Of a stretch of DNA of 35,801 bases, positions 11,550 to 12,115 are shown piece after piece. Under the pieces are notes generated by a model. It had not been told where the DNA came from and did no database searches. It saw only the letters and a program-made list of their open reading frames with translations. Source of the DNA: a virus. The translations under genes were made by a program, and so were the position numbers. Where the stretch lies: IMG/VR virus record IMGVR_UViG_3300032294_000447, positions 1 to 35,801 of that record. One strand, written 5' to 3'. Numbering within the stretch: position 1 is the stretch's first letter; each line of letters opens with the position of its first letter.

Positions 11550-11668
11550 CAAGCCCTGAGCTTGCCACTTTGATACTACTATTCGCGGGGGGATTTATGG
11601 GCGTTGGACTGATGGTATTCGCAGGTGCGTGTTATGTCGTTTATTTGGTGTTGACACCGGATGATTAG
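11546..11668 (+). CDS. 40-residue membrane protein with GTG start
   Basis: It starts with GTG at 11546, overlapping the preceding TGA as GTGA. The 40-residue product is mostly one or two hydrophobic spans (LILLFAGGFMGVGLMVFAGA plus CYVVYLVL) ending PDD. It is likely a small inner-membrane protein. The last bases include the -35 box of the noncoding RNA promoter. Function unknown. Confidence 0.55.
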   Translation: MTSPELATLILLFAGGFMGVGLMVFAGACYVVYLVLTPDD

Positions 11669-11680
11669 ATAGATTATCTT
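11651..11680 (+). promoter_or_regulatory. Promoter candidate for the structured RNA
   Basis: A perfect TTGACA (11651-11656), 18-base spacer and TATCTT (11675-11680, four of six) predict a start at about 11687. This is five bases before the first strong RNA helix (11692), which makes the placement convincing, although the -10 box is only moderate. Confidence 0.55.
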
Positions 11681-11686
11681 TGCGTT

Positions 11687-11793
11687 GTCTATGTACCGGC
11701 ATGGATAACGCTAAAGCCCACCAGCTTTGGTTCTTTACCCTTAGGGGGCGTGCCGGTACACGCGAGAGCCAAAACTTGTGGGTTTTTTTTCGC
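11687..11793 (+). ncRNA. Attenuator-like RNA with two exclusive folds and a T8 terminator
   Basis: Two competing structures can be drawn by hand. Fold A pairs TGTACCGGCA (11692-11701) with TGCCGGTACA (11751-11760), a perfect 10-bp helix, and CTAAAGC with GCTTTGG (11711-11717 / 11724-11730). Fold B pairs 11713-11733 with 11766-11786 as a long stem with two mismatches and a few G-U pairs, leading straight into eight Ts (11783-11790), plus an inner GCGTG/CACGC hairpin (11748-11752 / 11759-11763). The two cannot form together as nested structure, and fold A blocks the terminator arm. This is the pattern of a transcription attenuator ahead of the recombination genes. The signal and the family are unknown. 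Confidence 0.6.
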
Positions 11794-12030
11794 CTAGACC
11801 GTACTCCGCACGATAGCAAGGCTCGAAACCCGAGTGCGCGGAAGAAAAGGGTACACGGTATGCCGAAAGGCTAGGGGGCAGTTCCCGAATAACCCGTGCG
11901 GCTGGTCGAATCGTCAAGCCGAGGGGCGTACGGTATCCAATCCGTAGCATGACGATGCCCGATTGTGGGCGGTGAACCTTCCCTCTCTACCCTTTGCGTT
12001 TGGGGTAGGGGGGTCTTTGGGTGAACGGGG
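11794..12030 (+). ncRNA. GC-rich, helix-dense untranslated region
   Basis: No gene with a ribosome site is visible and the base composition is visibly GC-richer than the AT-rich early genes on both sides. Helices that can be drawn are ACCGT/ACGGT (11798-11802 / 11855-11859), TCCG/CGGA with CAC/GTG (11805-11811 / 11834-11842), CTCG/CGAG (11822-11825 / 11831-11834), a GNRA-capped GCC-GAAA-GGC (11862-11871), CGGCT/AGCCG (11899-11903 / 11917-11921), TACGG/CCGTA (11929-11933 / 11942-11946), GCAT/ATGC (11947-11950 / 11955-11958), GCCC/GGGC (11957-11960 / 11967-11970) and CTACCC/GGGTAG (11987-11992 / 12003-12008). Neighbouring helices share a few bases and would compete. I recognise no known ribozyme, riboswitch or tmRNA motif. 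It may continue the attenuator RNA or be a separate RNA. Confidence 0.5.
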
Positions 12031-12050: not shown

Positions 12051-12079
12051 TTGACTAACACAACATAATGTAATCTACT
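12051..12079 (+). promoter_or_regulatory. Candidate promoter of the second early block
   Basis: TTGACT (12051-12056), 17 bases and TCTACT (12074-12079, four of six) form a moderate sigma70-type promoter. A start near 12086 would place the TTTCCTAACTTA leader at the very 5' end of the message for the gene at 12116. Confidence 0.45.
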
Positions 12080-12115
12080 CTTAATACCTTTCCTAACTTA
12101 ATAAAGGGGTACATC

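Follow-up and report, generated by a model that had tools for sequence, protein, structure and literature searches.

A putative small RNA gene upstream of recE/recT

The window analyzed here, i.e., the whole stretch of DNA examined, is a 35.8-kb virus record (35,801 nt; IMG/VR IMGVR_UViG_3300032294_000447), and the element under study is flanked by small early ORFs on one side and by the recE/recT genes on the other. A 10-bp inverted repeat is formed by TGTACCGGCA (11692–11701) and its exact reverse complement TGCCGGTACA (11751–11760), and a long imperfect stem (11713–11734 with 11765–11786) leads into eight T residues (11783–11790). The initial annotation of this DNA, made from the letters alone, had described a TTGACA-18-TATCTT promoter, the 10-bp helix, and the long terminator stem running into the eight T residues, and all of these were confirmed in place. 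The features of the region are summarized in Table 1.

Table 1. Positions of the predicted features in the window.
Feature	Position	Strand	Remarks
Sigma-70-like promoter of the small RNA, TTGACA (11651–11656), 18 nt, TATCTT (11675–11680)	11651–11680	+	Promoter position conserved
Small RNA gene, ~104 nt, +1 at the HP1 base, 3′ end at the terminator U-run	11687–11790	+	Predicted ends; covariance model R1
Hairpin 1 (HP1), stem GTCTATG/CATGGAT, loop TACCGG (11694–11699)	11687–11706	+	Covarying stem
Terminator stem, left arm	11713–11734	+	98.2% of cells paired, 6 pairs changed on both sides
C of the kept mismatch C11725–A11774 within the terminator stem	11725	+	Opposite base A, C, or T (2 cases), never G
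Small variable hairpin P3 (CCC/GGG), terminator apex	11738–11747	+	Loop length varies among relatives
Hairpin 2 (HP2), stem GCGTG/CACGC, loop CCGGTA (11753–11758), perfect complement of the HP1 loop	11748–11763	+	66/67 class I
Terminator stem, right arm, and U-run	11765–11790	+	U-run 5–8, 67/67 class I
el2, second structured, GC-rich, modular non-coding region; a neighbour, not part of the small RNA	11799–12030	+	Slot varies in relatives
Separate recE/recT operon promoter, TTGACT-17-TCTACT	12051–12079	+	Position conserved in most relatives

When the best promoter was taken from each of 43 distinct upstream regions, the −10 box ended 6–7 nt before the first base of HP1 in 41 of them, while only 16% of shuffled upstream regions had a −10 end even within 5–9 nt of HP1. 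The same 41 regions thus carry a predicted promoter of their own that would start the transcript at the RNA 5′ end, as expected of a stand-alone small RNA gene. At the other end, a U-run of 5–8 residues was present in all 67 members of the group of relatives termed class I, directly after a GC-rich, covarying stem, as expected of an intrinsic terminator; a diverged bacterial copy (L255), with a poor and interrupted U-run, was the exception. Since both the promoter spacing and the U-run are kept, the conserved unit probably extends from +1 through the terminator, as a self-contained phage small-RNA gene (11687–11790). The prediction of the initial annotation that a structured RNA starts at 11687 and ends near 11790 is consistent with the promoter placement, the U-run, and the covariation described below, which support these positions as predicted ends. 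The covariance model R1 matched the window at 11687–11790 with 100.9 bits, the window being one of R1's own sequences. No Rfam 15 family reached its gathering score on the element, on class I, or on the divergent class II, in agreement with the initial annotation, which had recognised no known family, and no description of the element was found in open-access papers. Rfam matches of the microRNA type (mir-9, mir-290) lay below threshold and were dismissed as chance.

The folding energy of the 107-nt + strand was −45.2 kcal/mol, compared with −29.6 ± 3.5 kcal/mol for 200 dinucleotide shuffles (z = −4.5), none of which folded as well; the − strand of the element folded more weakly (z = −3.1). 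An RNA cut before the right arm adopted fold A, in which the 10-bp repeat forms a continuous helix (−32.5 kcal/mol at 77 nt), and the terminator fold won from 96 nt onward; therefore, both folds exist thermodynamically, as had been anticipated. In every class I member, the full terminator fold exceeded the truncated fold in stability by at least 9 kcal/mol. In the predicted structure, each arm of the 10-bp repeat corresponds to a hairpin loop plus a few of its closing bases, one arm to HP1 at the RNA 5′ end and the other to HP2 at the terminator apex. The two folds had been regarded as mutually exclusive, which holds for a nested drawing; in a loop–loop (kissing-loop) pseudoknot, according to this model, the terminator can form together with the 6 bp at the core of the helix.

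Covariation of the loops and stems in class I

Class I comprises 67 distinct sequences collected from RecE relatives in IMG/VR and by pattern scans. Most of them were found through the fixed stretches AAGCC, GCTTTGG, and GAGCCAA, whose invariance is in part a consequence of the search itself; the bait did not include the loops, HP1, HP2, P3, the promoter, or the U-run, and the first 14 members, found without any pattern, gave the same picture. Three of the six viral matches of a longer-spacer pattern scan (L110, L111, and L112) were true members with a spacer one base longer.

The HP1 and HP2 loops were perfectly complementary in 66 of the 67 sequences (65 by script count plus L165, whose HP2 was reread by hand as CGTG[CGCACA]CACG), with 20 distinct loop pairs whose lengths of 5, 6, or 7 changed in step. 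At most 5 of 22 distinct loop pairs matched in a shuffling control. The only class I member with non-complementary loops was L041 (41–146), where TGACGG faces CCGCATA. Across the loop–loop helix, 97% of the cells were paired and all six pairs exhibited double changes, i.e., the covarying complementary loops expected of a kissing loop or pseudoknot. The HP2 stem was paired in 100% of the cells, L206 and L222 having changed it in a compensatory way, the terminator stem in 98%, and HP1 in 87%, where pair 5–17 was AU in 33 sequences and CG in 13 and the closing pair was GC in 49 and AU in 1. HP1, HP2, and the terminator stem each showed independent covariation, and the comparative data as a whole lay far beyond chance. 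Because G-U cells greatly outnumbered A-C cells (166 versus 15), the + strand RNA is indicated as the selected molecule.

The loops evolved faster than the rest of the element: where two sequences differed by 3–6% elsewhere, 44% of the pairs already differed in the loop, and between L018 and L029 four of the six loop bases had changed on both sides. Diversifying selection is one reading of this fast change, and template switching between the repeats is another.

A mismatch in the middle of the terminator stem (11725/11774) was kept although the rest of the stem covaries, and class II seemed similar by eye. The counts at this site in class I were ACCT 22, GACT 15, AACT 14, GCCT 14, and GTCT 2.

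Class II, distant copies, and neighbouring genes

A covariance search revealed a sequence-divergent version, class II, which occupies this locus in other recE phages and has the same promoter spacing. Its HP1 loop complements a single strand at the terminator apex over 7–9 nt in all 21 members (9 distinct), as counted by script, the MAFFT alignment having the apex shifted by one column; L053, L061, L062, L065, L081, and L094 were further members. The small AAAGC/GCTTT hairpin, which had been proposed to hide the left arm of the terminator, was absent from class II, and this proposal does not hold across the two classes.

By our own tally, class I or II occurred at 51 of the 57 recE loci for which 1.7 kb or more of upstream sequence was present. 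No recognisable copy was present at six recE-bearing loci with enough sequence or in two related GenBank phages. A search with R1 of ~1170 genomes around a Polaromonas genome gave two matches, a search of ~400 genomes with R2 gave none, and BLASTN searches of the GenBank phage collection with four class I variants as queries, and of plasmids with one, also gave no match. Diverged copies were present in two bacterial genomes in prophage-like surroundings. One, on a bacterial contig (L255/L258), is much diverged but retains the overall architecture, with the loops GCGCAAT/ATTGCGC, new stem letters, and an ERF-like gene nearby; judging by its U-run, termination may not be needed everywhere. In the other, a chromosomal prophage-like copy lacking el2 (L256/L257), the ribosome-binding site of a replication-like gene lies directly 3′ of the element. 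The loop pairing of L256 is kept as a 9–10-bp complement, and its HP1 stem is weak.

Class I was found in at least four gene neighbourhoods: recE/recT; a P22-Cro-like gene with a divergent nuclease; divergent ERF/PD-(D/E)XK genes with a ParB-like gene after the element; and helicase/VRR-NUC-like genes before it. Among these names, P22_Cro, ERF, and a weak PDDEXK_1 match are tool results, and several others are our reading of the sequences. The sequence 3′ of the U-run also varied, consisting of different types of el2, of ORFs, or directly of a replication-like gene. The recE promoter, located 3′ of both the small RNA and el2, had a mean score of 10.9 versus 7.4 in shuffles (n = 17). At 12080–12115 of the window, ahead of the first recE-operon gene, lies a leader, TTTCCTAAC...AAGGGGTA, that is conserved in nearly all relatives.

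Possible function of the RNA

The element most likely encodes a compact early RNA that acts in trans, perhaps with read-through as in IsrK. Its promoter would start an RNA of ~104 nt at 11687, and the two loops of this RNA could pair to give a kissing-loop pseudoknot in which a helix holds the 5′ end and the terminator holds the 3′ end. During transcription, HP1 would form, and HP2 would dock on it upon emerging; the terminator arms would then zip, releasing a compact and probably nuclease-resistant RNA. In the most tentative step, the released RNA may bind a protein or another RNA and thereby work in trans at an early stage of infection. Partial read-through could give a second, long isoform as in IsrK. 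The flanks yielded no complementary target, neither the own loop nor its complement being clearly enriched in the flanking 2 kb, and a trans role is therefore something that we infer. Of the two options offered by the initial annotation, an RNA switch or a short trans-acting RNA, the latter is the better supported.

The switch, in which a continuous 10–12-bp helix (fold A) would alternate with the terminator and govern transcription of the exonuclease and RecT genes, appears very unlikely. The 10-bp complement is present and kept in most members, and the conserved C that faces A or C in the terminator stem might take part in the alternative hairpin, but the outermost extension pair (17–83) of the continuous helix was broken in 14 of 50 sequences and pair 7–93 was lost in L206. 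Because this extension is lost while the HP1 and HP2 stems are kept by compensatory changes, a kissing loop seems to explain the 10-bp complement better than a continuous switch helix. Moreover, the small hairpin of fold A is missing from class II, the recE operon has its own promoter 3′ of the element, and the element occurs in several neighbourhoods. A leader attenuator could also be imagined, in which the ~104-nt RNA is a terminated leader and an antiterminator or an RNA–RNA contact allows read-on into el2 or the genes behind it. This is rather unlikely, even though el2 of the L029 type starts ~10 nt past the U-run, too close for a promoter of its own, the L256 element abuts a ribosome-binding site, and the RNA truncated ahead of the right arm takes fold A. 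The downstream content is not constant, and no constant regulated gene emerged; the recE operon is served by its separate promoter; the full terminator fold is favoured in every class I member by the margin given above; and the two conserved, exclusive folds expected of a riboswitch or attenuator were not observed, the alternative fold with its AAAGC/GCTTT hairpin not being conserved across the classes. An attenuator dedicated to the genes after the element is tentatively disfavoured.

Complementary loops also allow for pairing between molecules. In the phi29 packaging RNA, complementary loops pair between molecules to form a ring on the packaging motor, and dimers or rings of the present RNA can be envisaged, each molecule having two complementary loops that change in step, a pattern of covariation that fits intra- and intermolecular kissing equally. 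The GOLLD and ROOL phage RNAs, which form assemblies via complementary loops between molecules, provide a precedent for intermolecular kissing loops in phage RNAs (PMC12286853). These RNAs share complementary loops with the element, but their loops are intermolecular and their genes lie at other places in the genome, whereas one loop of the element sits on the terminator apex, where pairing in cis is simpler. Both loops belong to a single ~104-nt molecule, within which they can meet, and the loop and apex strand of class II are as expected of an internal pseudoknot; pairing between molecules is accordingly given a low probability. A similarly low probability attaches to a dual RNA in the manner of IsrK, in which the short RNA would act in trans on its own read-through transcript. 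The IsrK RNA of the Salmonella Gifsy-1 prophage has its own promoter, a terminator, and partial read-through into a downstream phage gene (PMC4825925). In both IsrK and the element, a small phage RNA is framed by a dedicated promoter and an intrinsic terminator, and el2 seems to need read-through. However, own and foreign partners scored alike over 450 nt downstream (22 members; duplex energies only, two segments), the loops do not recur in the flanks, and, unlike IsrK, the element has no found pairing to its own downstream region and no Rfam match. The available part of the IsrK description, in turn, contains no complementary-loop pseudoknot (PMC4825925).

Finally, the complementarity might persist with no selection involved, if replication switched template between the inverted repeats. 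The repeats are near-perfect and ~50 nt apart, and close relatives (e.g., L018 and L029) have loops that changed in step, which would suit such a process, but it leaves the covarying stems, the G-U bias, the promoter spacing, the U-run, and class II unexplained, and we consider it barely plausible. A self-recognition code, in which the paired loops diversify between close phages while staying self-complementary, is a speculative and improbable reading; if it were true, each phage's RNA would recognise itself (whether in cis, within multimers, or through an immunity-like reaction) but fail to recognise that of a relative infecting the same cell. The P4 CI and P1 c4 immunity RNAs are small phage RNAs of the early region with short, group-specific complementary segments that pair with a separate target; for the element, no separate target was found. 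In the plasmid systems RNAI/RNAII and CopA/CopT, fast-changing loops of 6–7 nt stay complementary automatically, being encoded on opposite DNA strands, whereas in the element two sites on one strand must change together.

The element represents a phage RNA class outside the Rfam families, for which covariation supports a 5′ hairpin docking on its own terminator apex, and two sequence-divergent versions keep this one design. The quick but in-step change of the loops makes a self/non-self or structural role directly testable, and the models R1 and R2 can be used to find the RNA elsewhere. The element also marks a place in phage genomes that hosts several further structured RNAs (the el2 types) and ORFs. 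Several different large RNAs occupied the el2 slot in relatives, among them Rfam RF02932 (Betaproteobacteria-1), which lay directly downstream in L005, L008, L011, and L029 and is a different RNA with no match to the element. In L111, L189, and L221, an extra block bounded by inverted repeats was present between the small RNA and el2, e.g., GGCTATAAGGTGGCG ... GCCACCTTATAGC in L111. In L186 and L229, an ORF followed right after the U-run instead of el2, and the beginning of its translation resembles, by eye, an endonuclease of the NUMOD4/HNH type.
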